Shown piece by piece: positions 40,503 to 64,000 of a stretch of 64,000 bases of DNA. Made by a program: the position numbers and the translations under genes. Below the pieces are notes generated by a model. It ran no database searches. It was not told the origin of the DNA and worked only from the letters and a program-made list of their open reading frames with translations. Source of the DNA: a virus. Each line of letters begins with the position of its first letter. Within the stretch, counting starts at the first letter, position 1. The stretch is from IMG/VR virus record IMGVR_UViG_3300008954_000025, positions 23,893-87,892 of that record. One strand, 5' to 3'.

Positions 40503-40726
40503 GACTCCTCCAGTCGGATGGCGATGCTGCCGCCCGGCAGCTGCTCGAGGAAAGCGAGCAGCTGCTCTTGGTCCTCCGGGACCGTGAAGTCGACGATGTA
40601 CTCGGTGCCGTCATCGTCCTCGAAGGCGGCGCGGGTGCGGACCGTGCCTGGTGCGTCTGTCCACGCCTGCAGGTCTACGGGCTGCATGTGCGCGTCGAAC
40701 CACTCGCCCTCGTCCTTGCCGATCAT
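40499..40726 (-). CDS. Unknown small acidic protein
   Basis: A 75-residue protein from ATG 40726, overlapping the TSCPD gene's stop by 4 nt and the next gene by 4 nt. It reads MIGKDEGEWFDAHMQPVDLQ, AWTDAPGTVRTRAAFEDDDG, TEYIVDFTVPEDQEQLLAFL and ends GSIAIRLEES. It appears as a small acidic alpha/beta fold. Function unknown; it could be a host-takeover or inhibitor protein. Confidence 0.5.
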   Translation of the reverse strand: MIGKDEGEWFDAHMQPVDLQAWTDAPGTVRTRAAFEDDDGTEYIVDFTVPEDQEQLLAFLEQLPGGSIAIRLEES

Positions 40727-41433
40727 GGCGTCCTCGCTGTGGCCTCGTCCGTCCCTACGTGCGTGAGGTCCGGCTCCGGCTCCCACGCGCGCACGCCGGC
40801 GTCGTGCCCGAACCGCAGCACCAGCCAGTGGAACATGTAGTCGACGACCGAGGTCGCCGTGCCGATCTCCGACCCGGTAGCGACGCCCTGCGGCTCGAAC
40901 CGCGTGAACCGGAACTTGTCGGCGATGGTGTCGATCGAGACGCCGAACTGCAGCAGCAGGCTCGTCAGCTTGGCGATGGTGTCCATCAGCCCGCGCACGG
41001 TGGAGCCCGCCTTGGACATCGTGACGAACACCTCGGCCGGCGAGCGGTCGCTGTACAGGCCGACGTTGATATAGCCCTCGTGACCGCCCACCGCGAACTT
41101 GTGGTTGATGCTCTCGCGCTCCGGCGGGAGCTTACGTCGCACGGGCCCGAGCCCTTGAACGAACACGGGCAGCCACGTATCCAGGTCCGGGTGCAGCCCG
41201 GCCGGGAACGCGGCTGGGTAGCCGGTCAGGGCCAGGCGCTCGTGGATGCGGTCTCCGATCGCGCGGGGCAGCGCGTCCCCGTCGTGCCGGATCTTGATCG
41301 GCGGCGGCACCGCGGGCGGCACTGGCGGTTCGCTGTCGTGCTGCTCGATGTGGTCAGCGAGCGCCCGAAGGAACCCGGTGACCGGGGTCGGTACAGGGCC
41401 GAACTGTGTGGTGTCCTCGTTCTTGACCTGCAC
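40723..41433 (-). CDS. Stand-alone TSCPD-domain protein (class II ribonucleotide reductase C-terminal domain)
   Basis: A 236-residue protein from GTG 41433, with a Shine-Dalgarno GGAGG inside the end of the upstream gene. After a Pro-rich N-terminus, residues about 100-215 match the C-terminal TSCPD domain of B12-dependent ribonucleotide reductases: RRKLPPERESINHKF, VGGHEGYINVGLYSDRSPAE, VFVTMSKAGSTVRGLMDTIA, LLLQFGVSIDTIADKFRFTR and VVDYMFHWLVLRFG. The catalytic reductase barrel is absent here. In full enzymes this domain is accessory, and separate copies occur in bacteria and phages. It may bind a host reductase or act on RNA/DNA. Deoxynucleotide metabolism is the best guess. Confidence 0.8.
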   Translation of the reverse strand: MQVKNEDTTQFGPVPTPVTGFLRALADHIEQHDSEPPVPPAVPPPIKIRHDGDALPRAIGDRIHERLALTGYPAAFPAGLHPDLDTWLPVFVQGLGPVRRKLPPERESINHKFAVGGHEGYINVGLYSDRSPAEVFVTMSKAGSTVRGLMDTIAKLTSLLLQFGVSIDTIADKFRFTRFEPQGVATGSEIGTATSVVDYMFHWLVLRFGHDAGVRAWEPEPDLTHVGTDEATARTP

Positions 41434-41434
41434 T

Positions 41435-44209
41435 TCAGCCTCCCACCCGGATCACGTTCCATGACGCCGGAATGTCTTCCACGTGGTCGATGCGCGCGGC
41501 GGGCCACGCCGCGAAGACCTGATCGACGGTGCCGTCGGCGACGCGCGCCTCGATCTGCTGCAACATGGCTTGCAGGTTGTCCGGCTCCAGCATGGCGAGA
41601 TCCTCGTCGTCGAGGAGCAGCATCCGTGTCGGCGCGTCCTCGGTCCACGCGAGCGCGAGCGCTACGATGATGGACGCCTTCTCGCTGCCGCACATCGTGT
41701 GACGGCTGTGCGCGCGATCATCGTCGCCGACGATGCGCCACTCACACTGCTTATCTGACAGCGCGAGCCGGGCCGCGAACCCGTCGGGCATGTACTTGTT
41801 GACCGCGGTCTCTGCGCGCTTCTTCGTCTTGCGGAGAGCAGCGGTCATCGCCTTCTTCGCCTCGGTCTTCAGCGTCTTGGCTGTGTCGGCCCGCCGCCGC
41901 AGGACGCGGACGTCGGTCTCCATGCGCTCGAGGTTCATGCGCGACGCCTCGGCGTTCCGGAGCTGGCCGATCTGCGTCTCGATCTCGGCGCTGGCTGGCC
42001 CCGCGTAGTCCGCCATGTCTCCGAGCGCGCCGCGCAGCGCGTCGATGCTCGCCTCCACGCGGTGCGCCTCGGTCTTGAGCTTGGCGCGGTCATGCTGCGC
42101 CGTCGCGACGCGCTGCTGGGCCGTCGCGACGAGCTGGGCGCTCTCGTCGACGGCGGTCTGTGCCTCCTTGCGCTTCACATCCGCGTTGTACGCCGACGCC
42201 TCCGCGTTGTTCTTCCGGATCGCGACGAGCGCTTGGACCTGCGCGATGCGCGCTGTCCAGTCGATGCCGCAGGTCGCGCAGAACGGGCACGGCGTGGCTG
42301 CAGGGTCCGGCTGCCCCATGACGCGTTCCAGCAGTGCGTGTGCATCGAGCGCGCGTTGGTACTTGTCCTGCTCCTCCGCGGCCTCGTCCAGCATCTGCTG
42401 CGCATCGGCGAGGATCTTCTCCGCCACCACGCCAGCTCGGTCCCGCGCTTCCTGCAGACGCGTGAGGTCCGCCTCGGCCGCTTCGCACTCGGCGATGATC
42501 GCTTCCGCGCGAGGCTGAATGTCCGCCATCTGTTGCTCGGCGACGACCAGGCTCGCGCGGTTGCTCGCTTGCTGCTCGAACGCTCGGGCCTTGTCCCGCT
42601 GCGCTTCGAGCTCGGGTAGGAGCTCGACGCCGGCGAGGTCGAACGCGATGTCGCGTGCAGTCTCGAGATCGCGCTCCTTGCCGTTCGCTTCGGTGTTGGC
42701 GGCGCGCTGCGCCCGGTCGAACCAACCCTGCATCCCTGCGAGGATCTCGGCGGCTGGCTTCTGCTCGATCGCGGAGGCGATGAGCGCGTCGGCGGACACG
42801 AGTGACTGCACGCCAGCGACGGCCGCGATGGCCTCGCACCACAGATTGAGCTGCTGCTCGTCGAGCGCCTTCGGTACCGGGATCGTCTTGAGCCCGCCGA
42901 AGCGGGTCATGATCGTCTCGCGCGCCTTCTCGGCGCTCTTGCTGAGGAGGTCCCGCAGCGACACGGAGGGCAGCACGTGCTCGTAGCCGCTGACGCGCTG
43001 CGCGAGGTCTGGCGAGAACGTCGGCGCGCCGGGGAGCTTCTTGCCTGCCTCGGCTGAGTACGCCGCGGTGTGCGCTCCGTTGCTCAGCTCCGTCGACAGG
43101 TGCTTCACGCCGTCCGGCGTGAACTCGACGACGTCCTTGCCGTGCACCAAGCCGGGGAGCTTGCCGGTCCACGCGAGGCGGACCGCCTCGATGCCGGCGC
43201 TCTTGCCCTTGCGGTTGCCGCCGACGAAGATGTTGAGCGGTCCCAGCTCTGCTGTGATCGGGACCTTCACGTTGGCGTTCAGCCTGTCGAAGCGGACGGG
43301 CGATTTGGGGGTGGCGGGTGTCGTTCTTCTCGTTGCCATGGCACGGGCTCCTGGTTCTGCGTCGACGAGCAACTCGGTGATGCGTCCCCGATGCTTCGGG
43401 TCGGCGGCGACGTTGCGGTCGACGGTGAGTTGACGAGCCTCGGCGGCAGGCCAGTGTTCGGCCAGCCATTGCTCGACGGTCGGCTCGTCGGCGTTGGAAT
43501 AGATGACACGCGCGCCGGCATCGGTCCAGCGGGCGCACTGCTTGATGAGGTCTGTTTGGTCGTCGGCCGTGAAGCCTTCGGCCGTGTAGCTGACGAACCC
43601 GCCCTTGCCCCAGTACGGCGGGTCGAGGTAGGCGACGTCGTCCTTGCCCAGCTCGTACTCACGGTCGAACGCGCGGAAGTCGAGGCACTGAATGTCTACG
43701 CCGGCGAGGGCGACAGCGCACGCTTCGAGGCGCTCGAGGCTCGGCAGGTTGAGCTTGCGTAGCTCCTTGGCTGGACGCGGCGGCACGTTCATCTTGCCAC
43801 TCTTGTTCACGCGCCAGAGGCTGTTGAACGCCGCCTGCCGCAAGACGAGTTGCAGGCCGCGCGAGTTGCGCCGCGTCCCGTTGAACAGGTCGCGGAGCTT
43901 GTTGTAGCAGGACTTGGCGTCCTTCGCCTCAGCGAGCATGGCGGCGTAGGTCAGCGCGGTCTCGTGCACGTTCGTTGGGTCCTGCTGCACCGCGACCAGC
44001 AAGTTGACCAGGTCCGGGTTCGCGTCGGCGAGGATGACCGTCTTGCCGTCGAGCACGCCAGCCTGCTGCGCCGCGAAGAACACCGACGCGCTGCCGCACA
44101 TCGGCTCCACGTAGCAGCCGAACTCGTCCGGGAACCGCTTGAGGATGTGCGGCGTGAGCGGACTCTTGCGACCGACGTAGTAGATGAACGGTCCAGCAGG
44201 CTCAGCCAT
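41435..44209 (-). CDS. Fusion: D12-class Dam adenine methyltransferase + Rad50/SbcC-like ATPase
   Basis: A 924-residue protein from ATG 44209. Residues 1-290 are a D12-class DNA N6-adenine methyltransferase: YYVGRKSPLTPHILKRF, YVEPMCGSASVFFA and the catalytic DPPYWGKGG at 196-204. Residues 291-924 form an SMC/Rad50-type ATPase: Walker A GGNRKGKS 330-337, two long coiled-coil arms (about 500-630 and 660-800), a hook-like CPFCATC at 641-647, signature CGSEKAS at 840-846 and Walker B LLLDDED 864-870. Met291 (43339) has AGGAG 8 nt upstream, so the ATPase could also be made alone. The downstream gene is TSCPD, the upstream a small protein overlapping by 8 nt. The combination suggests methylation-linked DNA repair, recombination or protection. 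Confidence 0.85.
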   Translation of the reverse strand: MAEPAGPFIYYVGRKSPLTPHILKRFPDEFGCYVEPMCGSASVFFAAQQAGVLDGKTVILADANPDLVNLLVAVQQDPTNVHETALTYAAMLAEAKDAKSCYNKLRDLFNGTRRNSRGLQLVLRQAAFNSLWRVNKSGKMNVPPRPAKELRKLNLPSLERLEACAVALAGVDIQCLDFRAFDREYELGKDDVAYLDPPYWGKGGFVSYTAEGFTADDQTDLIKQCARWTDAGARVIYSNADEPTVEQWLAEHWPAAEARQLTVDRNVAADPKHRGRITELLVDAEPGARAMATRRTTPATPKSPVRFDRLNANVKVPITAELGPLNIFVGGNRKGKSAGIEAVRLAWTGKLPGLVHGKDVVEFTPDGVKHLSTELSNGAHTAAYSAEAGKKLPGAPTFSPDLAQRVSGYEHVLPSVSLRDLLSKSAEKARETIMTRFGGLKTIPVPKALDEQQLNLWCEAIAAVAGVQSLVSADALIASAIEQKPAAEILAGMQGWFDRAQRAANTEANGKERDLETARDIAFDLAGVELLPELEAQRDKARAFEQQASNRASLVVAEQQMADIQPRAEAIIAECEAAEADLTRLQEARDRAGVVAEKILADAQQMLDEAAEEQDKYQRALDAHALLERVMGQPDPAATPCPFCATCGIDWTARIAQVQALVAIRKNNAEASAYNADVKRKEAQTAVDESAQLVATAQQRVATAQHDRAKLKTEAHRVEASIDALRGALGDMADYAGPASAEIETQIGQLRNAEASRMNLERMETDVRVLRRRADTAKTLKTEAKKAMTAALRKTKKRAETAVNKYMPDGFAARLALSDKQCEWRIVGDDDRAHSRHTMCGSEKASIIVALALAWTEDAPTRMLLLDDEDLAMLEPDNLQAMLQQIEARVADGTVDQVFAAWPAARIDHVEDIPASWNVIRVGG
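43337..43354 (-). promoter_or_regulatory. Internal ribosome-binding site and ATG within the Dam-Rad50 gene
   Basis: On the - strand CAGGAG is followed after 8 nt (CCCGTGCC) by ATG 43339, in the same frame as the fusion. This is exactly where the methyltransferase domain ends and the ATPase domain begins. It would allow a 634-residue ATPase to be translated independently. Confidence 0.5.
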
Positions 44210-44698: not shown

Positions 44699-45858
44699 CA
44701 GTTCGGCTCCTGCGCCTTGATCGGCGCGCCGTTCAGCGCGGCTTCGATGCGGCCCTGCTCCTGCACACGCTCCAGTTCCGCTGCGGCGACCGCGTGCCCA
44801 GCCTGCCGGAGCAGCGCGACGGCGACGGTGCGGGCGACGCTGTCGGCGATGCCGAGCGTCGTAGGTGATGCCGCGCCGAGCTGTCCCTGGCCGCTGCCGA
44901 TCAGCGCGCCGATAGCCGCGGCCTTGAACGCGCCCTCGCGGCTGGAGCCTTCGCCCCAGCGCTCGCGCGCGTACTTCTCGACCGTGCCCATGATCCGCGT
45001 CGCCTCGGCCGCGACCGCGTTGGTCGCCGTCTGCAAGACGTCTTGCAACTCGACACCGTGCAGCGGCGGCTCCAGTGCGGTCAACGCTTCGAGCGTCAGC
45101 GCGACCTGGTGCCGGTTGACGACGAGCGGAGAGCTGGACACCGGAGCTTCGGGCGCCGTGTCACAGCTGCCGCGGGCGACCTCGGCCTCGAAGGTCTTCT
45201 TCTCCTCCTCGTACGCCGCCTGTGCAGCGTTCTCGGCCTCGAGTTGCCCAGCGAACTTCACGAGGATGATCTCGCCTTGGTCGTCGATGACGACGCCCTC
45301 GCCGATGCTGCCTTCATCCGCGCGCACGAACACGAACGCGCCCTCCTCGTACTTGTCGAGCTGCGTCGGCGGCTCGACGTCGGCGGTCGAGCCTGGCTTA
45401 CGATTGTCTCGGGCGCGCTGCTCGACGAGCGCTGGCGGAAGGCCGGCCCAGTACGTCGGGGCGACGTACTCTTCGGACGCCTCCTCGCTCGCCATGACGC
45501 CGAACTCGTTCCACACCTCGGCGTACGACACGGCCTCGTCGACGTGTGGCGTGAGCCAGTCGATGAGCGCCATCGCCGCTTTCGCCTCGTCGCCGCGCAT
45601 CTTGATCGACGGGTCCATCTTGTAGTGCCGCCGGCCTTCCTCGTCCGTGCTCGCCTCGGCATTGTCGATGCCCGCACACAACAGCGTGGGCCAGCGCTCC
45701 GAGAAGTCCGTGAACAGCGCGTGCTCCGGGAGCTGCAAGTCAGCTTGCGCTGCCGGGTCGGCGCCGGGGTCGGTCATGAAGTTGACCAGCTCGATGACTT
45801 CGGTGGGCGTGTCCGCCTTGAGTCGGAAGTCGAGGGTGATGTCGAGGTAGTGTCCCAC
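44698..45858 (-). CDS. Unknown 386-residue early protein
   Basis: Starts GTG 45858 (TAGTG overlap). The N-terminal ~130 residues begin HYLDITLDFRLKADTPTEVI and contain aromatic motifs (FSERWPTLLCAGIDN; EVWNEFGVMASEEASEEYVA). The centre has GAFVFVRADEGSIGEGVVID and IILVKFAGQLEAENAAQAAY. The C-terminal 130 residues are helical (LTLEALTALEPPLHGVELQD; YARERWGEGSSREGAFKAAA). It carries two dyad copies (45033 and 45735). No family is recognised. The last domain has the look of phage dNTP- or host-interaction proteins with helical bundles, but this is unsupported. Confidence 0.5.
   Translation of the reverse strand: MGHYLDITLDFRLKADTPTEVIELVNFMTDPGADPAAQADLQLPEHALFTDFSERWPTLLCAGIDNAEASTDEEGRRHYKMDPSIKMRGDEAKAAMALIDWLTPHVDEAVSYAEVWNEFGVMASEEASEEYVAPTYWAGLPPALVEQRARDNRKPGSTADVEPPTQLDKYEEGAFVFVRADEGSIGEGVVIDDQGEIILVKFAGQLEAENAAQAAYEEEKKTFEAEVARGSCDTAPEAPVSSSPLVVNRHQVALTLEALTALEPPLHGVELQDVLQTATNAVAAEATRIMGTVEKYARERWGEGSSREGAFKAAAIGALIGSGQGQLGAASPTTLGIADSVARTVAVALLRQAGHAVAAAELERVQEQGRIEAALNGAPIKAQEPN
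45033..45046. repeat. GCAAG-N4-CTTGC dyad, copy 3
   Basis: GCAAG 45033-45037, spacer ACGT, CTTGC 45042-45046; with T45032/A45047 it is a perfect 16-bp palindrome. On the coding (-) strand the codons are TTG CAA GAC GTC TTG, with low-GC Leu and Gln codons at the arms. Confidence 0.75.
45735..45748. repeat. GCAAG-N4-CTTGC dyad, copy 4
   Basis: GCAAG 45735-45739, spacer TCAG, CTTGC 45744-45748, in the same gene as copy 3. The codons on the - strand are GCG CAA GCT GAC TTG CAG, again CAA and TTG. Confidence 0.65.
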
Positions 45859-46181
45859 TAGTTCTCTCCTATCGTTCGGTACTCGATGGTGCAGCCGGAG
45901 CCGACGGCGTGGTCGATGCCGTACTGCATGCCGCCGCTGATGCCGTAGTCGGTGTACACGACGATGACGTGCGCGGCGCCCTGCCAGGCGAAGCCGGCGT
46001 GGATGCCGGTCTCGCGCTCGACGGGATCGGCGTCGTCGAGCACGCCGGGTTGCGTGTACAGGCCGTGACTGGCGAACGGCGCCTCGCCGCGCCGCAAGCA
46101 GTCGTGCATGCAGCGCCGCAGGTATGTCAGGTTCCGCTCCACGTCGCCGGCGTACGGCGACTCGATGATGACGCGCTTCAT
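45858..46181 (-). CDS. Nucleoside 2-deoxyribosyltransferase-like (DUF7768-type) protein
   Basis: A 107-residue protein from ATG 46181 with GGAG upstream. It reads MKRVIIESPYAGDVERNLTY, LRRCMHDCLRRGEAPFASHG, LYTQPGVLDD, ETGIHAGFAWQGAAHVIVVY, TDYGISGGMQYGIDHAVG. Short proteins of this type, with S-P-Y-x-G-D and G-x-x-x-G-I-x-x-A, are common in phages and have a Rossmann fold like nucleoside 2-deoxyribosyltransferases or DprA/LOG-like domains. Possible role in nucleotide salvage or in binding nucleotides. Activity unproven. Confidence 0.6.
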   Translation of the reverse strand: MKRVIIESPYAGDVERNLTYLRRCMHDCLRRGEAPFASHGLYTQPGVLDDADPVERETGIHAGFAWQGAAHVIVVYTDYGISGGMQYGIDHAVGSGCTIEYRTIGEN

Positions 46182-46465
46182 TGGTTTCTCCCTACTCCGC
46201 ACACGTGCGACCGCGAGTAGCCCAAGACGTAGCCGACGTCAGCCCACGTCATGCCCTGCGCCCGGAGCCGCTTGACCTCGGCAGCATCCACACGCGTCTT
46301 GCGGCCGGAACGCGCCGTCGAGCGCAGGCCGTTCCTGCGGGCCCAGTTCGCGATCGTCTGCCGATCGCGGACGAGCTCGTCGCCGACCTCCTGGTACGAC
46401 CGCCCCTCGGCGAGCAGCTCGACGACGCGCTCCGTCTCGTGCGGCTGCAGTTGACGATAGCTCAC
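46178..46465 (-). CDS. Helix-turn-helix protein (homeodomain-like, two HTH units)
   Basis: A 95-residue protein from ATG 46465, overlapping neighbours by 4 nt at each end. The first HTH is ETERVVELLAEGRSYQEVGD followed by RDRQTIANWARRNGL. The second is DAAEVKRLRAQGMTWADVGY followed by LGYSRSHVCGVGR. This looks like a resolvase/transposase-type tandem HTH that could bind DNA with dyad symmetry. It is a candidate regulator of the early operon, and perhaps of the dyads nearby, but this is speculation. Confidence 0.65.
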   Translation of the reverse strand: MSYRQLQPHETERVVELLAEGRSYQEVGDELVRDRQTIANWARRNGLRSTARSGRKTRVDAAEVKRLRAQGMTWADVGYVLGYSRSHVCGVGRNQ

Positions 46466-47187: not shown

Positions 47188-50106
47188 TCATCCTTGCTCT
47201 GCCCACGTCTTCGTCGCGAGGACCTCGTCGCCGGGCAGGGGCAGCCCATCCAGCTCCGCGTACATGGCGTCCTCGATGATTGCTTTGGCTTCGTCGGCGC
47301 GTGACTCCGGAACGTACACGCCGAGGTAGTCGTGGACCTGCAGGCACAGCCCGGTCCACCGGCTCCACTTGCCGAACGGGATCTGCTCCGCGACCTTGAG
47401 GATCGCGTCGTTCATCAGCGCGGCCGCCGTGCCCTGGATGGTGTGGTTCGGCGGCGCGTTCTTCTTGCTGGGGCCGCCGGGGAAGAAGCGCTTGCGCAGG
47501 TGGATGCGGTCGCAGACGTAGCCGAACTCGCGGACGCCAGAGGCGATCGTGGCCTGCCAGACGCGCGTCTCGGGATGGAGCTGGTGCCAGCGCTTGTGCC
47601 AGCGCTCCGCGTCGGACGGCTGGATCGTCGGGAACGTGCGGGCGCCAGTCGCCTTGTCGCGCTCGCCGAACATCGTCTGGAAGAGCTTGTCTTCTTCGCC
47701 GCCGTACGCCTCGAGGTACTGCACGCGCTTGGCGACCGTGCGCACGTACTTCTTCTTGCCCTTCGGGAGCTTCTTCAGGACGTGGTACGTGTCCATGATG
47801 TCGCTGTCCGTCGGGTCGGACGCTTCGCAAAACAGCGTCGCCGCGTTCAGCAGGTGCGGGTCCATCGGCTCGCCGTCGCGGTCCTTGCCGCGGAACGCCC
47901 GCAGCAGGAACTGGTCCTGGGCGAACAGCGCGTAGAGTCGCTGCTCGATCTGTGCGAGGTCGCTGCCGACGATGACGTGGCCAGGCGGTGCGACGACGAG
48001 CTCGCGTAGGTTCGTGGGTACGCCGCGCAGCGGCAGGCCGGTGTGCGGGTCCTGCACCCAGCCCTGTCCGGCCTCGTCATAGATGTACGGAGCGAAGGCG
48101 CGCGCTGGCCAGTTCTGAGCGTTCGGTGAGCTGGCCCAGCGGCCGGACGGCACGACGTGGATCTTCCACGAGATGTTGAGCAGCGACAGCGCGGGACGCC
48201 GGGACAGGATCGTCTCGCCGTCGAGCACCACCGCGTCGGCGTGACCGAGACCTGCGAGCGCCTTCACGTTCCGGACCTTGGCGTTGTCGATGTATGACCC
48301 GCGGAGCTTGTCGCAGGCGCGGAACTCGATGAGCGCGTCAATCGCGCGCTCGACGTCGGCGCTCACCCCTTGGTCGAGCAGCTGCAGCAGCGCGGGGGTC
48401 GAGGTGCTGACGTCGTCGCCCTCCTCCCACTCGTGACCTTGCGGCGTGAGCGTGGGCGAGTAGCTCAGCTCGTCGTAAAGCCAGGTTGCGACCTGCTTGG
48501 GCGAGTTGGGGTTGATCGGTTTGCCCGCCGTCTCTTGGAACTTCTTCGTCAGGTCCCGGCACAGGCGGTTGAAGACCAGGCTCAGCTCACCGCGCCGTCG
48601 CTCGTCGATGACGAGCCCGAGGTCGCCCATCTGCGACGCGACTGGCGCGAGCCGGGAGTCGACGACGAACTGCTCCTTGGTACCGCACGCGAGGATGTCG
48701 TCGCGCAGTAGCGGCCACAGGCGGCCAGTGACCAGCACGTCGTCGCCGCAGTAGAAGTGCAGGTCGAAGTCCTCGTCGACGTTGTCGGCCGCCTTGTGGT
48801 CGACATCGTGCTTGTGCATCGGCGCCTCGAACTTGCGCCGCATGCAGAAGCCGAGGTCGTGCGGCAGATCGTTCTCCATCGTGTCGTGGTGCGCGATCAT
48901 CGTGTCGAAGCAGATCTTGTCGCGGATGGGGAACATGCCGTGGCGGTACAGCACCGGAACGTCGAACCCCATGAAGTTGTGGCCGACGATGCGGCAGTGC
49001 TCGTTGACGCGCCGCACAGCGGCGACCGCGCGCTCGTGATCGCGACGGTCGGCCCAGTACGGCCGACCATCACGCCACCGGAACGGCACGACGATGACCA
49101 GCTCGCGGTCGCCCGTGAGCGGGTTCGGCTCTGGCGTTTTGATGTACAGGCCGACGCACCGGATCCGCGCCGTCTGTGTGTTCGCAGAGTCGGTCTCGAT
49201 GTCCTCGACGACGCGGCACTCTCGGTTGTCGCGCCACTTCAGCATCCAGTCAGTCGCCTGCTCGACCTGCTCGACGGTCGGGAAGACGATGTACTTCGGA
49301 CGCTTCCAGTCGATCTTGTTGCCGCGACTGGCGATGCGCGCGCCCTTGGCGATGTCGTCGAGGATGACGTGCTTGTACGCGCGGTTGCCGCGCATCGCGA
49401 AGGCGGGATGCAGCGTCGGCGCGATGATTACGCCGTGCTTCTCACGCAAGTCGATCGGGCTGCCGTGCTGGTTCTTGATCGTGGCGACGGTCGGCACGCC
49501 GCGCTTGTCCTTGGCCTTGCCGTAGTGCAGCCCGTACCGCTCGGCCGTCATGCGCAGCGCGTAGCCGCCGACAGCGAGGATGGTCGTGGCGCCCGCTTCT
49601 TCGATGTCGAGGTCGAGACGCGGGCGGCAGCACTCGAGCGGCGTGGGCGCCGGGACGTACGTCGCGAGTGCTTCCTTCTTGGTCAGTGTCCGGCCGTTGA
49701 CCACCACGGGTCCGGCCTTCAGCGCGGCCAGCTTGCGCGCCTCCTCGCGCCCAAGCCGCTCGATGTAGCTCTTGATGCCCTCGGGCGGCTGGCACAGCAG
49801 CGTGTTGGTGATCGAGATGTCGTCGCGGGTCAGGTCGCCGCGACCGAGCCCCTCAGCCAGCTCGGTGCCGGAGCGGCCGACGAACGGTGCGCCCTGCGCG
49901 ACCTCGTGCTTGCCGGGCGCTTCGCCGATGGCGATGAGCGCCGAGCTCGGTCGAATCTCGCCCATGACTGGGCCGCGATGGCAGCCGAAGAGCGGGCACT
50001 CGGTGCAGCGTGCGCCTCTGGCGGTGGCGCGTGCGTGCGCCTCTTCAGCGCTGTAGGCGCGGACAATCGGTCCGTCGTCGAAGATCCTGAGCCCGTCGCT
50101 GACCAT
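47188..50106 (-). CDS. Uracil-DNA glycosylase (family 4-like) fused to family A DNA polymerase
   Basis: A 972-residue protein from ATG 50106. Residues 30-250 are a 4Fe-4S uracil-DNA glycosylase: ligand Cys C34, C37, C105 and C159/160, the GEAPGKHE loop 61-68, VGRSG, and LHPAFAMRG. Residues about 295-520 form a DEDD 3'-5' exonuclease with EDIETDS (301-307), HNFMGFDVPVL and YCGDDV. The rest is a PolA polymerase: motif A VGSDLAQIEQRL, motif B RTVAKRVQYLEAYGG and motif C QVHDYL. A Tyr takes the place of E. coli Phe762 in motif B, as in T7 polymerase. It should be the replicative polymerase with linked uracil removal or sensing. Confidence 0.92.
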   Translation of the reverse strand: MVSDGLRIFDDGPIVRAYSAEEAHARATARGARCTECPLFGCHRGPVMGEIRPSSALIAIGEAPGKHEVAQGAPFVGRSGTELAEGLGRGDLTRDDISITNTLLCQPPEGIKSYIERLGREEARKLAALKAGPVVVNGRTLTKKEALATYVPAPTPLECCRPRLDLDIEEAGATTILAVGGYALRMTAERYGLHYGKAKDKRGVPTVATIKNQHGSPIDLREKHGVIIAPTLHPAFAMRGNRAYKHVILDDIAKGARIASRGNKIDWKRPKYIVFPTVEQVEQATDWMLKWRDNRECRVVEDIETDSANTQTARIRCVGLYIKTPEPNPLTGDRELVIVVPFRWRDGRPYWADRRDHERAVAAVRRVNEHCRIVGHNFMGFDVPVLYRHGMFPIRDKICFDTMIAHHDTMENDLPHDLGFCMRRKFEAPMHKHDVDHKAADNVDEDFDLHFYCGDDVLVTGRLWPLLRDDILACGTKEQFVVDSRLAPVASQMGDLGLVIDERRRGELSLVFNRLCRDLTKKFQETAGKPINPNSPKQVATWLYDELSYSPTLTPQGHEWEEGDDVSTSTPALLQLLDQGVSADVERAIDALIEFRACDKLRGSYIDNAKVRNVKALAGLGHADAVVLDGETILSRRPALSLLNISWKIHVVPSGRWASSPNAQNWPARAFAPYIYDEAGQGWVQDPHTGLPLRGVPTNLRELVVAPPGHVIVGSDLAQIEQRLYALFAQDQFLLRAFRGKDRDGEPMDPHLLNAATLFCEASDPTDSDIMDTYHVLKKLPKGKKKYVRTVAKRVQYLEAYGGEEDKLFQTMFGERDKATGARTFPTIQPSDAERWHKRWHQLHPETRVWQATIASGVREFGYVCDRIHLRKRFFPGGPSKKNAPPNHTIQGTAAALMNDAILKVAEQIPFGKWSRWTGLCLQVHDYLGVYVPESRADEAKAIIEDAMYAELDGLPLPGDEVLATKTWAEQG

Positions 50107-50190: not shown

Positions 50191-50853
50191 CTACAGCAGC
50201 TCGGTTGCGGCCTGCGACGCCGTGGGCGCCGCGGCAGCCGCCGCGTGCGCCGCCGCGCCGTTGGTGCCAGCGCCCGGCGCCGACACCGCAGCGGCAGCGG
50301 AACCGCCGGCGCGCTGCGCGGCCCACGCCTGCGCCTCGGGCGGCAACGCCGTGCGGTGCGCGTTGATCGCCTTGTTGGCCAGGTAGCGCTCCTTGCTGAG
50401 GAAGAAGCCCGGCTTGGACGACCAGTTGCCGGTCTTCTCGTACTTCTCGGCGCGGGCCGTGATGTAGCAGGTGCGCCCCTTCAGGGTCTCGCAGATCTGC
50501 TCGATGGGCATCTTGCCGATCTCCTCGAGCTTCTGCAGCTTGTCCTTCGTGGTGCCGCTGCTGTCGAGCACCTCGAACAGCCGGTGGGCGTTCGGACGGG
50601 GCGGGTCGCCCTTCGCCATGCCGGTGTACGGCACGTACGAGACGAGCTTCTTGCCCTTGTTGTCGTCGTCGCTCACCACCAAGGTGAAGATCACCTGGTA
50701 GTTCTCGCTGCTTTTGCTCTTGCCGGGCGCGGCCTCGGCGATGCTGACCTCGAAGTCGCCGTCAGCCGTCAACAGCTGTGAGGACTGGCCACCTTGCGGG
50801 CGCTCCCACGCGCCGGCGCCAGTGAAGTCGAGAGGAGGGAGTACGTCTGTCAT
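50191..50853 (-). CDS. Single-stranded DNA-binding-like protein (DUF669-type)
   Basis: A 220-residue protein from ATG 50853 with AAGGAAAA upstream. It starts MTDVLPPLDFTGAGAWE, then DGDFEVSIAEAAPGKSKSSE, NYQVIFTLVVSDDDNKGKKL, VSYVPYTG, and a helical region with LQKLEEIGKMPIEQI. ICETLKGRTCYITARAEKYE closes the OB-like domain. The tail is a long Ala/Gly/Pro low-complexity region ending ATELL, as in SSB-type tails. DUF669-like proteins of this pattern sit in phage replication/recombination modules, between the nuclease/ATPase and polymerase genes as here. Confidence 0.65.
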   Translation of the reverse strand: MTDVLPPLDFTGAGAWERPQGGQSSQLLTADGDFEVSIAEAAPGKSKSSENYQVIFTLVVSDDDNKGKKLVSYVPYTGMAKGDPPRPNAHRLFEVLDSSGTTKDKLQKLEEIGKMPIEQICETLKGRTCYITARAEKYEKTGNWSSKPGFFLSKERYLANKAINAHRTALPPEAQAWAAQRAGGSAAAAVSAPGAGTNGAAAHAAAAAAPTASQAATELL

Positions 50854-50936: not shown

Positions 50937-52019
50937 CTACAGGAGTGCTGCGGGACTCGCGGCGCTTGCAGCGGCCGACATGTCCGGCATGTCTCCCAAA
51001 GGTCGGGGGACGCCGTAACCTGCGCGGTACAACGCCCAATGAAAGTGATCGATGGCGATCGACTCGCCAACGCCGAAGTCCCGGAACTTCCGGAAGTGCG
51101 TTTCGGTGAGCTTGGTCATCAGCTTGCGCGTGCCCATGTTGTCGATGACGCCCTCGAGGACGGCGTCGGCGATCGCGCTGACCGCTGTACGCAGCGGGCC
51201 CGTCGTGAGCTGAGGTCCACCGCGGTACTTGAGCTCGCCCATGCGCTGCGGCGGATCGGTCTTCGCCTGGCCGAAGTACGCCGGGTCAGCTCGGTGGCAG
51301 ACCAGCGCCATGAAGCACTCCAGCGAGCGCGGGACGTTCGTGAACCAGTCGACGAACTCGTTCATCCCGACGCGCCGAGCGAAACCTGACTTGCGCAGGT
51401 CCTTGAGGCTCGTCTTGATCGCGCCGACGTTGGCGACCCAATCCTCGACGTCTTCGATCTCGGCCGCCCACCGGCGGAAGAACTCCGTGCCCTCGTCCCA
51501 GACGAGGCCACTGTACGGCACCACGCCCTTGGCTGCGCCAGCGCCGTAGGCGTTGACGATTCGGTAGGCCAGCTCCAGGTTCGGCGCGCGCGAGCCCACG
51601 TCAGCGGGCTTGAGCTTCGGGATGACCTTCACCGCCAGTCCGCCCTTGTCGTACGGGCGCTGCTTGACGGGGATGCCGGCCAAGCCGTCGAGGAACGGCG
51701 GCAGGTCGACCACCGACCCGACCTTCTTCGCCTTGGCCGGCGTCCACTCCGGGTTCCACATGAAGACGGTCCGCATGCCGAGGCCGAGCACCTCCTCCGG
51801 GTTCTCGCGGCACCATGAGGCGTACGGCCGCAACACCTGCTTGTTGGTGAGCAGGAACAGCGCGCCGGGCTTGTCGACCTGCCCGCCGAAGCTGCGTGCA
51901 AGCAGGGTTGACTTGCCCCAGCCGGGGTCGGCCGTGATGATCACGAACGGCCACTCGGTCATCATCCCGGTTGTGTCGGTCAGCGTCAGACCGATCTCGT
52001 CCTTCAGAATGTCGTTCAC
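50937..52019 (-). CDS. AAA/RecA-like ATPase (AAA_24-type), recombination module
   Basis: A 360-residue protein from GTG 52019; the longer open frame overlaps the nuclease gene and is not needed. Walker A is PGWGKSTLL from residue 32, and Walker B is GLVWDEGTEFF near 215. Other features are FLLTNKQVLRP, ELAYRIVNAYGAG and a SLKDLRKSGFARRVG helix. ALVCHRADPAYFG resembles sensor regions. Compact P-loop ATPases paired with Cas4-like nucleases and SSB-like proteins form phage recombination systems (Sak4-like). That role is inferred from neighbours. Confidence 0.7.
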   Translation of the reverse strand: MNDILKDEIGLTLTDTTGMMTEWPFVIITADPGWGKSTLLARSFGGQVDKPGALFLLTNKQVLRPYASWCRENPEEVLGLGMRTVFMWNPEWTPAKAKKVGSVVDLPPFLDGLAGIPVKQRPYDKGGLAVKVIPKLKPADVGSRAPNLELAYRIVNAYGAGAAKGVVPYSGLVWDEGTEFFRRWAAEIEDVEDWVANVGAIKTSLKDLRKSGFARRVGMNEFVDWFTNVPRSLECFMALVCHRADPAYFGQAKTDPPQRMGELKYRGGPQLTTGPLRTAVSAIADAVLEGVIDNMGTRKLMTKLTETHFRKFRDFGVGESIAIDHFHWALYRAGYGVPRPLGDMPDMSAAASAASPAALL

Positions 52020-52050
52020 AGCACGGACTCCAAGCGCGCAGACGCGCGGT

Positions 52051-53067
52051 CTAGGCTTTGGTCGGAAGTTGTACGAGCTCGGACGCGTCCGGCGTCGAGA
52101 ACTCGGTCGCGAGCACGCGGCTCTGCTGCTCCTTCGAGCGCGCCGCGCACACATTGAAGTAGTCGCACTTGCCGTAGCGCCCTTCGCAGGCGGCGTAGTT
52201 CGGCGTCGGCTTGCCACCGACGTTGATCTTCTCGATGATCTGCGCCTCGCGGCGCACGGCCTCGACCATCATCATCTTGCTGTCGTTGTAGGCCAGCTCC
52301 GGCGGCCGGAGCGCGTGTCGGTCGCCGTCGTAGGGCAGCGTGCGCTTGATGCGGTTGATGGCGAAGCCGCGCAACGGGTAGTTGATGGGCAACTCGTCCT
52401 GGTTCCGGCAGATGTGCAGGTTCTGAAACACCTGGAACGACAGACCGAAGTCGCCGTCCTCTTTCCACTTGGCCAGCCGGCCGCTGTTCGACCCGCGCGA
52501 CGTCTTGTGGTCGACGATCCACGCCTCGCCGTTCCACACCACCACCAGGTCGTTGCGGCAGGTGATGACTTCGTCGACCAGGTCCGGAGGGCACGCCGCG
52601 CCGATGATGCGCCCCAGCGTCGACCGGAACTCCTCCTCCACGTACAGCGGGTGCCAGTGCTCCGCGGCGTAGCGGTGCTTGCACCACTCCCCGATCTCCT
52701 TCGCCTGGCGAATGAGGTCCGGGTAGCCCTTGCCGTCCTCGAGTAGCGCGACCTCCACGTCCGGCTGCTCCACGAGCCACGCCGGCGCCGTCTCGGTCTT
52801 CTGCGCGAACCAGTAGGCGAGGATCGTGTGCACCAGCGTCCCGAGGAGCTGGTAGCTCTTCTGCGCCTTGGGGCGGATGTACATGTGGTACCGCAGCGCC
52901 CACAGCCGTTCGCAGGTGAGCGCGGCCGCGAGCCGGTGCGACCCGCGGGCCGAGCTGCCCGAGACGCCGCTGGTCGCCGGCCGCGCCGAGAGCTTGGAGG
53001 GCGACGCCCCGATGGATGAGTCGAGCACGGTGCCCTCCGTTTTCCCTCGTACGGACAGCGCCGTCAA
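52051..53067 (-). CDS. PD-(D/E)XK nuclease, Cas4/RecB-like, with 4Fe-4S-type cysteines
   Basis: A 338-residue protein from TTG 53067; GTG 53028 is an alternative. H80 in LLGTLVHTIL and WIVDHKTSRG near 183-192 give the RecB-family GxxxH and DxK motifs, and an acidic residue lies in VEEEFRSTLG. C52 (LTCERLWALRY) with the C-terminal group in CEGRYGKCDYFNVC forms the one-plus-three cysteine pattern of Cas4/AddB-type iron-sulfur nucleases. It probably resects DNA ends for recombination or replication. It lies just upstream (in transcription order) of the AAA ATPase. No CRISPR array or cas1/2 is present. Confidence 0.85.
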   Translation of the reverse strand: MTALSVRGKTEGTVLDSSIGASPSKLSARPATSGVSGSSARGSHRLAAALTCERLWALRYHMYIRPKAQKSYQLLGTLVHTILAYWFAQKTETAPAWLVEQPDVEVALLEDGKGYPDLIRQAKEIGEWCKHRYAAEHWHPLYVEEEFRSTLGRIIGAACPPDLVDEVITCRNDLVVVWNGEAWIVDHKTSRGSNSGRLAKWKEDGDFGLSFQVFQNLHICRNQDELPINYPLRGFAINRIKRTLPYDGDRHALRPPELAYNDSKMMMVEAVRREAQIIEKINVGGKPTPNYAACEGRYGKCDYFNVCAARSKEQQSRVLATEFSTPDASELVQLPTKA

Positions 53068-53265: not shown

Positions 53266-53468
53266 AGCGATGCCCCTTCCGGCCGGTACGCGCCGCCGGT
53301 GTTCGCATCCACATGGCCTTCGCAGGCGATCACCGGGCCACCGAAGTCTCCGTGGTCTTCGTAGTCGACGACCTCGACCTGGCCCCAACACGGCTCCGCC
53401 TCGGAGTCGTACGCGCAGTCGCCCATGTACGACGCTTCATAGCTCGCGCTGCGGTAGTGCTCAGTCAC
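53262..53468 (-). CDS. Small acidic protein, possible metal binding
   Basis: A 68-residue protein from GTG 53468, overlapping neighbours by 4 nt. It reads HYRSASYEASYMGDCAYDSE, AEPCWGQVEVVDYEDHGDFG, GPVIACEGHVDANTGG. C-W-G-Q-V plus C-E-G-H could form a Cys/His metal site. Related small proteins accompany helicase genes in phages; the job is unknown. Confidence 0.5.
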   Translation of the reverse strand: MTEHYRSASYEASYMGDCAYDSEAEPCWGQVEVVDYEDHGDFGGPVIACEGHVDANTGGAYRPEGASL

Positions 53469-55432
53469 GCCGCGTCCTCCCAGTCCTCGCCGATGTGGCC
53501 AGCCAGCCGCTCCAACGTCGCGGCCAGCGTCTCCTTCTCTTCCTCTTTGGTCATGGTGCCGCGGAGCTGGACGGCGCCCTCTTCGTCGGTGACGCGGGCG
53601 AGCGCGTCGACCTTCGGCAGGAAGCGCGCTTCGCGGTGCTCGTCGATGGTGCCCTTGACGACGTAGTACACCAACGACAGACCGCGCTCATCGAACTCGC
53701 CAGTCTTCGGGTCAGGCTCGTACGGCCGGTCTTCGGCCTGCAGCATCGCCGACGGGTCGTGGTGCATGTCGACCCAGTGCTCGGTCACCGCGCCACGGAG
53801 TGAGACGCCGACCTGGAACGAGTCGATGGTCATGACGAAGACGCCCGCGCCGCGGTGCTCCCGGAACGCTCGGCCCATCTTGCCCCGGGCGTCGACCGAC
53901 ACTTCGCCGTGCGCGCACCAGACCTGCGCGCGGACCTTCTCCATGCGCTTCTTGAACTCGCGCTTCTTGCACTGCTTCTTGAAGGCGTCGGCGTAGAGCT
54001 TGGCCGTGTCCGGGTTGAAGCACACGACCATGATCTTCAGGCCCTCGACCAGTTCGGGCATCGCGTTCTCGAGGACGTGCGACAGCTTCACCTTGGCGGT
54101 CTGCGCCATCAGCTTCTTGGTCTTGTCGCCGATGTCCAGCTTGCCGCGGAGGATGCGGCGCACGGCCGTCATGGCCACGTCGGCTTCGATGCGCAGCACC
54201 TGGCGCTGCTTCTTCGGCATGTTCGGTAGGATCTCCGAGCGCGGGCGCATGATGGCGAAGCGCTGGATGCGGCGCTTGAGCTCGGTCTCGGCGTACTGCG
54301 ACGCGCCGCTGTTCTCCCAGCCATAGTCGCCTGTCTGGCCATCACAGTAGCGCCGGTCGAAGTCGAAGAAGAGGCGGTCGTCACTCCACGTAGTCGCAGC
54401 GCCGAGCGACGCGGCGTCGAGCTGGCCCCACCAGTCCCGGACGTACGAGAACTGCGGCGTGCCTCCAACCAACCAGCACCGGTCGATGCGCGCGGTCAAC
54501 TCGTTGAACTTCTCGCGCCGCGTCTGGCCCTTCTTGGACTCGTCGGTGTTGCGACCGCGGAGCATGTGCGCCTCGTCCGCGATGACGAGGTCGAAGCGGT
54601 AGCGCGCGAGGTGCGGGACCCAGCCGAGCAGGTCCGGGCGGATGTACTTCACGCCGGCCGCGTCCTTGGCCTGCTGCGCGACGATCAGCTCGTAGTTCAC
54701 GATGACGTACTTGGCCCGGTCGATCGTCTCGTGAAGCTCCTGGGCGCACTGCGGACACGTCGTGTCGTGCTTGGTGCAGGTGCCGTGCCCTGCGTCGATG
54801 AGGCGCAGCCCGTTGCTCTGGCCATTGAGCAGCTTGCAGTCGTCGCACGATGAGCCGTCGTCGGTGTTGAAGCCGCGACCCATGCACGACTTACAGAACA
54901 CGCGCGCAACCTTGCCTGCGCGGCCGTAGAGGATGACGGCCTCCTCGTCGCACCAGCGCGCGATCTCCTCGGCCCACCCGAGCTTCGGCAGCGCGGGCAC
55001 GACGCACAGGATCTTCTCGGCCCCGACCAGTTCGGCCGCCCCGAGCGCGGTCGGCGTCTTGCCCGACCGCATCGGATTCGCCAGGAAGCCCCAGTGCCAC
55101 AGCGCGAGCTGGAGTGCGTCTTCCTTCTGGTAGCTCCGGAACTTCTCAGGGAAGCCGAGCTTGCGGTAGCGCTCCAGCCCCGACATCTGCAAGACGGCCT
55201 GCACGCGGCTGTCGTTGGCTTGCAAGGGAAGTTGCGGAGCGTCCACGTCGAGCAGCGCCGCGACCGCCCACGCGACGTCCCACGTACACGCGAAGCCGCC
55301 AGTCACCCGCTGCACGCCGGGGATGGCGAGGATCTCGTCGGCGCGGGCGCCGTACGCTTCGCCGGCGAGGAAGCACGGGCGCTCACCGCGTCGCCCCATC
55401 GAGGGCAAGATCTCTTGCGGCGACAGCGTCAT
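53465..55432 (-). CDS. SNF2/DEAD-type helicase with zinc insertion
   Basis: A 655-residue protein from ATG 55432. Motif I is MRSGKT at 121-126, preceded by FRSYQKEDALQLALW (Q-motif-like). Motif II is DEAH 286-289 and motif III LVGGTPQ. The second RecA domain has IMVVCFNPDTAKLYADAF, VFVMTIDSFQVGVSLRGAVT and EDRPYEPDPK. Between motifs Ia and II a segment with C180, C183, C196, C199, C226 and C229 should bind zinc. It resembles phage SF2 helicases for replication or recombination initiation. The first codons contain dyad copy 6. Confidence 0.85.
   Translation of the reverse strand: MTLSPQEILPSMGRRGERPCFLAGEAYGARADEILAIPGVQRVTGGFACTWDVAWAVAALLDVDAPQLPLQANDSRVQAVLQMSGLERYRKLGFPEKFRSYQKEDALQLALWHWGFLANPMRSGKTPTALGAAELVGAEKILCVVPALPKLGWAEEIARWCDEEAVILYGRAGKVARVFCKSCMGRGFNTDDGSSCDDCKLLNGQSNGLRLIDAGHGTCTKHDTTCPQCAQELHETIDRAKYVIVNYELIVAQQAKDAAGVKYIRPDLLGWVPHLARYRFDLVIADEAHMLRGRNTDESKKGQTRREKFNELTARIDRCWLVGGTPQFSYVRDWWGQLDAASLGAATTWSDDRLFFDFDRRYCDGQTGDYGWENSGASQYAETELKRRIQRFAIMRPRSEILPNMPKKQRQVLRIEADVAMTAVRRILRGKLDIGDKTKKLMAQTAKVKLSHVLENAMPELVEGLKIMVVCFNPDTAKLYADAFKKQCKKREFKKRMEKVRAQVWCAHGEVSVDARGKMGRAFREHRGAGVFVMTIDSFQVGVSLRGAVTEHWVDMHHDPSAMLQAEDRPYEPDPKTGEFDERGLSLVYYVVKGTIDEHREARFLPKVDALARVTDEEGAVQLRGTMTKEEEKETLAATLERLAGHIGEDWEDAA
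55405..55418. repeat. GCAAG-N4-CTTGC dyad, copy 6
   Basis: GCAAG 55405-55409, spacer ATCT, CTTGC 55414-55418, within the first ten codons of the helicase gene (start 55432). The - strand codons CAA GAG ATC TTG again use CAA and TTG. A site this close to a start codon could be an operator. Confidence 0.7.
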
Positions 55433-61836: not shown

Positions 61837-62195
61837 AATCCCTCCGGAACCTCGATCTCGGGTCGAGGTGCTGCGGCCTCGGGCGCCGGCGCCGCGACCG
61901 CAGTCAGGTTCTGCAGCTTGGCGCTGCGCTGACCGTAGATCACGTTCATGGGGTCGACTTCGAGGTAGCGCACGAGATCGGCGATCAGCACGATGCCGGG
62001 CTCGGCCTTGCCGTTCTCGAGGCGCTTGATCACGTCGGGCTCGACCTTGATCACTTCGGCGACCTGGGCCTGCGACAGACCTTTGCGGTCCCTGGCGCGC
62101 TTCACGGCCGCAACGAATCTGCGCCATGGTCCGGGGAGCTTCTCGACTTTGGTGTGCTCAGAGCTGGTCGAACCAGCCAATGCGGGATTCGTCAT
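61833..62195 (-). CDS. XRE-family helix-turn-helix regulator
   Basis: A 120-residue protein from ATG 62195, overlapping the helicase stop by 38 nt. Residues about 25-80 are a cro/C1-type HTH: FVAAVKRARDRKGLSQAQVA, EVIKVEPDVIKRLENGKAEP, IADLVRYLEVDPMNVIYG. An Ala/Pro-rich tail follows. XRE proteins bind palindromic operators, often as repressors, so it is the best candidate in the window for an early-gene regulator and could be tested against the GCAAG-N4-CTTGC dyads. No lysogeny module is seen. Confidence 0.8.
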   Translation of the reverse strand: MTNPALAGSTSSEHTKVEKLPGPWRRFVAAVKRARDRKGLSQAQVAEVIKVEPDVIKRLENGKAEPGIVLIADLVRYLEVDPMNVIYGQRSAKLQNLTAVAAPAPEAAAPRPEIEVPEGL

Positions 62196-64000
62196 CGTCG
62201 GACACGACAACACGCGAGTCCGGACCAGTCAAGTCAGGGTTAGCTAGGTCCGGACTCGACTGCTCGTCGGACATCGCATGCTGCAGCTGCTCCTGCAGCG
62301 TGGTCCGCCGCTCGGTGCCCCGGGTGTTCTGCGCCGCCCGGACCACCTGGTGACCCTGCCCATAGAGCAGGACCAGCTCGGACGCCCGCGTCACGCCGGT
62401 GTACAGCAGCGATCGCGTCAGCATGAAGCTGTGCTGCTCGTGGACCGGGAGCACGACGCAAGGGAACTGGGAGCCCTGGCTCTTGTGCACCGTGATGGCG
62501 TACCCCAGCAGCAGCTCCCGGACGTCGGCCTTGGTGTACGCGACCTTCCGGTCGTCGTACTCCACCACCACCACGCGGTCCGACCGGCCGGCCGCGTCGA
62601 TGGCAACCGAGATCACGTCGACGTCCTCGTCGGTCGCCACCATCCCGAGGTCCTGGAGCTCGTCCTCGAGGATGCCCTTGAAGTCGGCCGCCACCACCGT
62701 GCCCATCTCGCCGTTGAACACCAGCAGCTTGTAGTTGTTCTTCACGTGGATGACGCGGTCGCCGAGGCGCGCCCGGTACCCACCGCCAATCCACAGCCCA
62801 TCCTCATCGGAGCCAGGGTTCAGCCGCGCCTGTAGCGCCCGGTTGAGCTGCTCGACGCCGATGGGTCCGCCCTTCTGGGGCGCCATCACCTGGACCTCAC
62901 TGATGGGGTCGTAGGCTCGACGGCCGCGCGCGGGGTTCGCGGAGGGCAGCACGGTACCCACCGCCTTCACAATGCAGTCCGCCAGCGTCTCCGGGTGGTC
63001 CTCGCCGATGAACATGACGTCGCCGCCGGCGCCCAGGTCCGGAGCGCGGCCGTGGTTGATGTCGCGCGCCACGTAGGGGATACGTGACTCACTCGCCTGC
63101 CGGAAGATTCTGGAAAGCCGGCACACCGGGACGATTCCAGACTCGATGACGTCGTGCAGCACCCTCCCGGCGCCGATCGACGGGAGTTGATCGACGTCAC
63201 CGACGATGATCAGCCGTGCGTTGTCGGGGATTGCCCGCACGAGCGCGTGGAACAGGCCGGTGTCGACCATGCTCGACTCGTCCACGACCACCGCGCCGAC
63301 GTCGAGCGGCCCGCCGGCGACTCTTCCAGATTCGTCGTAGGCCACTTCGCCGTCGTCGTGCCGGAAGCCCTGCCCCGGGACGTAGCCCAGCAGCCGGTGG
63401 ATGGTCATCGCCTCCCGGCCGGTCTGCTCCTTCATCCGCTGCGCGGCCTTGCCGGTCGGGGCGCAGCAGGCCGTGTCGATGCCGTTGTGCTCGAGGACCT
63501 CCAGCACCGCGCTGAGCGTCGCCGTCTTGCCGCAGTTGTGCACCACGAACCCGCCAGCAACGTAATTCCGGTCAGGGTCGGCCATGACGAGGTCGTACAC
63601 AGGCCGCACGCCCAGCGGCGTGATGGACGTGATGCTGTCCACCTCTGTCTGCTGATTGCCGAAGTGCTGCCGGTTCTCGCCTCCGTGCCTCCGTGCGTGC
63701 TCCGCCTTGGACAGCGCTTCCAGATTCGTGGGGCGGTCGTCCGTCGGGTCGCCGTTCTTGTGGTGGACCTCGACGTTCGGCGGTAGGAACTCGAGTGTAC
63801 TGGCGAGGCTGCTGCTCTGAAGACAGCGCACGAGCTGCTCCAGCGGCAGGCCGTTCAGCTCGGCCTCGAGCACCAACCTGGCGTTGCGCACGAGTCGGTA
63901 CGTGTAGACCCTGCCCCTCGACAGTACGCGCTTGGTCCGCGCCTTTGGGTGGTAGGGCACGTGGGTCTCGGGACGATACTTGGAGTTCTTGCCGCGCGTC
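62158..64000 (-). CDS. RecD-like SF1 helicase interrupted by an HNH-containing intein (5' truncated by window edge)
   Basis: The frame enters from the right edge (64000). The first ~155 codons seen are the back part of an intein: an HNH homing nuclease (VEVHHKNGDPTDDRPTNLEA) and the splicing end VYDLVMADPDRNYVAGGFVV followed by H-N. The junction N|C is at about 63535. After it the host protein reads CGKTATLSAVLEVLE, so the intein sits inside the P-loop. Other helicase motifs are APTGKAAQRM, VVVDESSMVDTGL, IVGDVDQLPSIGAGRV, ITVHKSQGSQFPCVVLPVH and LYTGVTRA, as in RecD/RecD2. The N-terminal extein and intein block A lie outside the window. Confidence 0.9.
   Translation of the reverse strand, partial: TRGKNSKYRPETHVPYHPKARTKRVLSRGRVYTYRLVRNARLVLEAELNGLPLEQLVRCLQSSSLASTLEFLPPNVEVHHKNGDPTDDRPTNLEALSKAEHARRHGGENRQHFGNQQTEVDSITSITPLGVRPVYDLVMADPDRNYVAGGFVVHNCGKTATLSAVLEVLEHNGIDTACCAPTGKAAQRMKEQTGREAMTIHRLLGYVPGQGFRHDDGEVAYDESGRVAGGPLDVGAVVVDESSMVDTGLFHALVRAIPDNARLIIVGDVDQLPSIGAGRVLHDVIESGIVPVCRLSRIFRQASESRIPYVARDINHGRAPDLGAGGDVMFIGEDHPETLADCIVKAVGTVLPSANPARGRRAYDPISEVQVMAPQKGGPIGVEQLNRALQARLNPGSDEDGLWIGGGYRARLGDRVIHVKNNYKLLVFNGEMGTVVAADFKGILEDELQDLGMVATDEDVDVISVAIDAAGRSDRVVVVEYDDRKVAYTKADVRELLLGYAITVHKSQGSQFPCVVLPVHEQHSFMLTRSLLYTGVTRASELVLLYGQGHQVVRAAQNTRGTERRTTLQEQLQHAMSDEQSSPDLANPDLTGPDSRVVVSDDDESRIGWFDQL

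Follow-up and report, generated by a model that had tools for sequence, protein, structure and literature searches.

Organization of the fused gene

The window analyzed here is a stretch of 64,000 nucleotides (positions 23,893 to 87,892) of the viral record IMGVR_UViG_3300008954_000025 (G000), which is 87,892 bp long and possibly a fragment. It contains a single open frame in which an adenine methyltransferase (MTase) is followed by a Rad50/SMC-like ATPase (Table 1). The start of this frame (position 44209) overlaps the stop codon of the upstream gene as ATGGCTGA, and this overlap is kept in L006 (IMGVR_UViG_3300025131_000070), a separate IMG/VR contig which encodes a fusion of 925 aa with about 79% amino acid identity. 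The joint in the fusion of the window is short and the domains on either side of it are essentially complete.

Table 1. Features of the fused gene and of the neighboring genes (positions in the window)
Feature	Position	Strand	Evidence or remark
TSCPD-domain protein	40723..41433	-	PF12637 E 2e-11; 1 nt downstream of the fusion, tight operon
MTase-ATPase fusion ORF	41435..44209	-	single open frame, 924 aa
Rad50/SMC-like ATPase	41435..43339	-	634 aa; motifs, fold
Walker B LLLDD(E)	41606..41623	-	Asp replaces the catalytic Glu
ABC-signature-like MCGSE	41681..41695	-	motif reading
Second coiled-coil arm	41798..42259	-	model residues 651-804
CPFC zinc-hook motif between the arms	42278..42289	-	motif and model
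First coiled-coil arm	42317..42754	-	model residues 486-631
Walker A GGNRKGKS	43199..43222	-	motif reading
Internal ATG where a putative ATPase-only form of 634 aa would start	43337..43339	-	boundary position
D12-class adenine methyltransferase part	43340..44209	-	residues 1-290; PF02086 E 2e-33
AGGAG, Shine-Dalgarno-like site	43348..43352	-	8 nt before the internal ATG; same in L006
DPPY motif IV of the MTase	43613..43624	-	residues 196-199
UDG-PolA polymerase	47188..50106	-	PF00476 and PF03167
Weak SSB-like protein	50191..50853	-	phrog_378 E 0.002
AAA protein	50937..52217	-	AAA_24 match in the L013 homologue
PD-(D/E)XK exonuclease	52051..53067	-	PF12705 E 2e-9; phrog_1218 exonuclease
SNF2-type DNA helicase	53465..55432	-	phrog_62 E 1e-36

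The source sequence is metagenomic, and the first-pass annotation had pointed to a stop codon lost by an assembly error as an alternative to a real fusion. We regard such an artefact of assembly or sequencing as practically negligible, because the same open joint is present in the independent contig L006. Equivalent fusions were also found in three more relatives, L007 (IMGVR 3300037264_007739), L009 (IMGVR 3300030095_004245) and L013, a contig in a Gemmatimonadetes MAG. Furthermore, the other two frames contain no stop codon near the joint of the window, and a stop masked by an erroneous indel is therefore not a ready explanation. A comparison of the window with L006 gave a dN/dS of 0.29 for the MTase half and the same value for the ATPase half, while the junction evolves faster (0.70 over 22 codons). 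By this measure both halves are under purifying selection within the fused frame. Judged by these sequence comparisons, the D12 adenine methyltransferase and the short-armed Rad50-like ATPase form a genuine and selected fusion.

The methyltransferase half

The match of the MTase to PF02086 covers positions 1-241 of the 253 of the profile, and the match to phrog_56 had an E value of 2e-45. When the full protein was used for the search, TIGR00571 (dam) was matched over profile positions 3-265 of 267, above the curated cut-off. DpnM and Dam were the PDB matches of this half. The closest phage homologue is the dpnM product of phage Rctr197k, with 35% identity and 165 bits, vs 96 bits for the next one. 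Motif I is diverged in the window (EPMCGSA). On these matches residues 1-290 are a full-length D12-class adenine methyltransferase, in agreement with the first-pass annotation, which had read the gene as a D12 MTase with a DPPY motif joined in one frame to an ATPase with P-loop, coiled coil and CxxC hook. The AlphaFold model of this half was of low confidence and unusable because the alignment was shallow. Under-representation of GATC was tried as a hint of a methylated site, and it was uninformative: the observed/expected ratio in G000 is 0.94, neither clearly depleted nor enriched.

The ATPase half

In the AlphaFold model the ATPase half consists of a head, an arm of about 145 residues, the hook loop, the returning arm and a second head lobe, with pLDDT values mostly between 75 and 90. 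A Foldseek search with this model ranked Rad50 first and Lamassu LmuB (9hqu) third, followed by SMC heads. Together with Walker A, CPFC, MCGSE and Walker B, this bears out the earlier description of the second half as Rad50-like; by anatomy and modeled fold it is a Rad50/SMC-like coiled-coil ATPase.

Assignment to a narrower class was not made. Pfam AAA_23 remained below threshold with the ATPase of the window (E 0.014-0.022), and phrog_77 matched with an E value of 1e-4 in the window and 4e-13 in L013. The PADLOC LmuB profile PDLC03859 matched the window with 5e-11, mainly in the coiled coil, and the ATPase of L009 with 6e-12 over residues 171-643. The catalytic position of Walker B is Asp and not Glu throughout the members of the ATPase family. 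We did not class the protein as SbcC because the profile match is weak, the catalytic Glu is exchanged for Asp and no SbcD partner was found in G000, and not as LmuB because no LmuA or LmuC was recognized in the flanking genes scanned.

The CxxC hook is present in 8 of the 9 full-length members of the family. The exception is L007 (7980-9836, plus strand), where the ATPase has FPIL at the place of the hook; this suggests that the L007 lineage can do without the hook or has replaced it.

Relatives and joining events

The relatives were found by alignment queries. IMG/VR scans with single sequences, either the fusion or the ATPase alone, yielded no relatives, and neither did a plasmid search. 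In a tblastn search of 50,697 phage records the ATPase matched Rctr197k only, and none of these records covers 80% of the fusion. Among 298 Gemmatimonadetes genomes no relatives were found beyond the source genome of L013.

In L007, L009 and L013 a homologous ATPase is fused at its N-terminus to an MTase of the PF05869/phrog_111 type with an NPPY motif (PF05869 in L007, E 7e-27; phrog_111 in L009 and L013, E 3.5e-53 and 4e-57). PF05869 is a different Pfam family from the D12 family (PF02086) of the window. Each of the fused records contains exactly one match to D12 or PF05869, which is the fused copy (the D12 search left out the L013 genome). The ATPase stands alone in four relatives (Rctr197k, L010, L024 and L043), and L012 is a fragment. 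Rctr197k has one D12 gene (dam/dpnM), located about 16 kb from its standalone ATPase, while profile searches found no D12 or PF05869 gene in L010, in L024 or in the L012 fragment. Standalone ATPases, two of them in records where neither MTase family was found, indicate that the ATPase has a role without an MTase. Separate domains in relatives, which the first-pass annotation had raised as an argument against the fusion, thus do occur in the distant Rctr197k, whereas the closest relative L006 keeps the fusion.

The PF05869 tree did not decide between one and two fusion events for L007 and L009/L013 (p-AU 0.46). In the ATPase tree a single clade of the three PF05869 fusions is somewhat disfavored (p-AU 0.066), and a single clade of all fused forms was not rejected (p-AU 0.50). 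Because the trees do not fix the number of fusions, we left the count at at least two joinings, with an MTase swap counted as one. From the family membership of the MTases we infer that an MTase and the ATPase came together on two or more occasions, through separate fusions or through a swap of the MTase within a fused gene.

The internal start

The internal ATG with AGGAG at a distance of 8 nt, which the first-pass annotation had noticed at the boundary of the two domains, is present in the window and has the top Shine-Dalgarno score among 19 in-frame ATGs. All five fusions (window, L006, L007, L009 and L013) have an ATG at the boundary and a Shine-Dalgarno-like site before it. The site is AGGAG at 8 nt in the window and in L006, AAGGA at 8 nt in L009 and L013, and AGAGAGGG just before the ATG in L007. 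When the predicted pairing with the 16S tail was ranked, the boundary ATG was first or second of the 9-24 in-frame ATGs of each fusion.

The pair L009/L013 is well diverged, and none of 10 informative codons around the internal start carried a synonymous change (p about 0.0002); equally low values occurred in 3 of 488 windows along this pair. For the pair of the window and L006 the conservation at the internal start was not significant (1 of 9, p 0.29). The N-terminus of the standalone ATPase of L024, MATKRSRK, resembles the internal starts MATRRTT, MATRRKT and MAKRKTV, and the boundary ATG is probably the ancestral start of a standalone ATPase. Two products are the most likely output of the gene, the long MTase-ATPase and a putative ATPase-only form, an interpretation that these data support and do not prove.

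As a separate observation, the start of the MTase in L013 (8524-8553) has no obvious ATG and a strong GGAGGAG just before it. The L013 fusion may start at CTG or another codon.

Genomic setting

Upstream of the fusion the block is arranged in the order SNF2 helicase, PD-(D/E)XK exonuclease, AAA protein, SSB-like protein and UDG-PolA. The exonuclease, the SSB-like protein and PolA, with the ATPase and an AAA protein alongside, recur in Rctr197k, L006, L007, L009 and L013, and the helicase of the block recurs in Rctr197k and L013. PolA or a PolA end was also located near the ATPase in L010, L024 and L043, so that every sufficiently long record has UDG-PolA or a PolA end close to the ATPase. Downstream, the TSCPD gene adjoins the fusion in L006 and L013 as well, and ribonucleotide reductase genes adjoin the ATPase in L010 and L043 (in L043 by sequence reading). 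The genes around the ATPase are those of DNA synthesis and recombination and do not form a defence cassette.

Several neighboring genes had features of their own. The UDG-PolA of the window combines a family 4-like UDG and PolA in one protein of 972 aa; the same fusion was found with Pfam in Rctr197k and L007, and homologous genes are present in L006, L009, L013 and L024. The operon of the MTase-ATPase gene also contains a DUF7768/nucleoside 2-deoxyribosyltransferase-like protein (45858-46202, minus strand), which is 91% identical in L006. A RecD2-like helicase (62158-63960, minus strand) has an HNH domain and a weak intein-splicing match in its N-terminal part, possibly the remnant of an intein. 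In the UDG-PolA of L007 (1368-5246, plus strand) the UDG domain is interrupted by an insertion that matches LAGLIDADG weakly and is probably an intein. An insertion containing LAGLIDADG is also present in ThyX of L010 (1903-3843), and sequence reading of L043 (7073-9163, plus strand) revealed a ribonucleotide reductase large-subunit-like ORF with an apparent intein-like insertion.

Possible function of the fusion

We tentatively favor the reading that the locus is a two-product gene whose ATPase directs adenine methylation to newly synthesized phage DNA; we consider it plausible, at somewhat below even chance, and its mechanism is inferred. The boundary ATG would still be used, yielding the long MTase-ATPase and the short ATPase, and both forms would pair via their ATP-bound heads and the zinc hook. 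Rad50-family proteins bind DNA ends or fork structures, and the paired complex would do the same and thereby bring the methyltransferase to phage DNA that has just been made. Adenine methylation during copying or recombination would then protect the phage DNA from host restriction, and the ratio of long to short form would set the number of methyltransferases per ATPase dimer. A further reading, which we consider possible and clearly more doubtful, describes an end- or fork-sensing ATPase of the Rad50/LmuB type, acting as a complex of long and short forms, whose output at broken, recombined or copied phage DNA would be a self mark by adenine methylation and not cleavage, with MTases of two unrelated families.

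The first-pass annotation had linked adenine methylation with an end-processing ATPase. The link itself is now better supported, since relatives carry MTases of a second family on this ATPase; the end-processing part gained no such support, as no nuclease was found here and a phosphoesterase partner was seen in L009 and L013 only. Discrimination of self DNA, also proposed there, is one possible reading.

The fusion could alternatively be a passenger arrangement, in which a lost stop codon joined two neighboring genes of the block, each half works on its own and most of the ATPase comes from the internal start. The short joint between near-complete domains, the retained internal start, the faster evolution of the 22 codons of the junction and the separate MTase and ATPase genes of Rctr197k would all be in line with such an event. 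A neutral event does not predict, however, that at least two joinings with different MTase families always occurred on the same side of the ATPase, and the purifying selection on both halves in the fused frame also argues against it. We consider the passenger arrangement rather unlikely. Somewhat less probable still is a methylation-gated nuclease, in which the ATPase would regulate an SbcD/Mre11-type or PD-(D/E)XK nuclease in the manner of SbcC; the MTase would mark the phage DNA, and unmethylated DNA of the host or of competitors would be attacked. A PD-(D/E)XK exonuclease does belong to the conserved block of the window, and in L009 and L013 a phosphoesterase is encoded downstream of the fusion, a few hundred bases away. 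It matches phrog_704, 'DNA repair exonuclease', with an E value of about 1e-57 and has the motifs DxH, GD, GNHD and GHLH, so that some members of the family may form an SbcCD-like pair. On the other hand, searches with PF00149 and phrog_704 found no SbcD/Mre11 in the 87.9-kb record G000, possibly a fragment, in line with the absence noted in the first-pass annotation, and a phosphoesterase nuclease was not found in L006, L007, L010, L012 and Rctr197k, all possibly fragments. The ATPase family matches SbcC profiles weakly and, to our knowledge, no adenine-methylation-gated SbcCD has been described, which also counts against this explanation.

Phage-carried immunity of the Lamassu type, with an LmuB-type sensor of DNA structure and the MTase as effector against competing phages or plasmids, appears very unlikely to us. 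LmuB of PADLOC was among the best matches of the ATPase and 9hqu among its Foldseek matches, and the size, the arms of about 20 nm, the common but not universal hook and the altered Walker B Glu are striking parallels to LmuB (PMC10586767). The location of the gene in a replication block and not in a defence cassette argues against the immunity reading, and an MTase would be an unusual effector. Moreover, no LmuA or LmuC was recognized in the flanking genes scanned with Pfam and PHROGs, or with PADLOC on two flanking genes.

In the searchable literature, that is in titles and abstracts, we found no description of an adenine methyltransferase-Rad50 fusion. The repeated joining of unrelated MTases to one ATPase is strong evidence that both act together, and delivery of methylation by the ATPase would offer a concrete and testable example of structure-directed DNA methylation in phages, with a possible route for marking new DNA ahead of host restriction. 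The closeness of this phage replication-block family to Lamassu LmuB also bears on the origin of such defence sensors.

Comparison with known systems

The fusion family varies a known theme, the Rad50/SbcC-like proteins of phages, which include gp46 of T4 and the SbcC of jumbo phages. It shares with them the ABC heads split by a coiled-coil hairpin, the CxxC hook and the setting in phage replication and recombination, and Rad50 is the best PDB fold match of the ATPase of the window. It differs in the short arms (about 145 residues each), the weak profile matches, the Asp in Walker B, the fused MTase and SbcD, which was not found in most members of the family.

The phage Rctr197k has a homologous standalone ATPase (APU88860, 34% identity) that adjoins a homologous UDG-PolA, and its D12 MTase is the phage protein closest to that of the window; in contrast to the fusion, its ATPase and dpnM genes are apart. 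For LmuB a similar size, short arms, a frequent hook and an altered catalytic Glu have been described (PMC10586767). The family of the window resembles it in a length of about 560-650 aa, in the short arms, in a hook that is present in most and not all members and in the altered Walker B Glu, but the exchange is E to D here and E to Q in LmuB, and the genes lie in a replication block without identified LmuA or LmuC instead of a defence operon. The logic of two forms has a precedent in McrB, where a full-length DNA-acting NTPase is accompanied by an internally initiated short regulatory form (PMC12602166); McrB is an unrelated GTPase and a precedent in this respect only.

The closest precedents for the architecture are the Mre11/Rad50 fusions and RloC. 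Mre11/Rad50 fusions such as R555 of Mimivirus arose repeatedly in mobile elements (PMC3175470) and, like the protein of the window, carry a DNA enzyme at the N-terminus of a Rad50-like ATPase, the partner being a nuclease there and a methyltransferase here. In RloC a zinc-hook Rad50-like ATPase is fused to a tRNase toxin (PMC2610378); both proteins combine such an ATPase with an effector enzyme, which is a tRNase in RloC and a DNA MTase in the fusion of the window.
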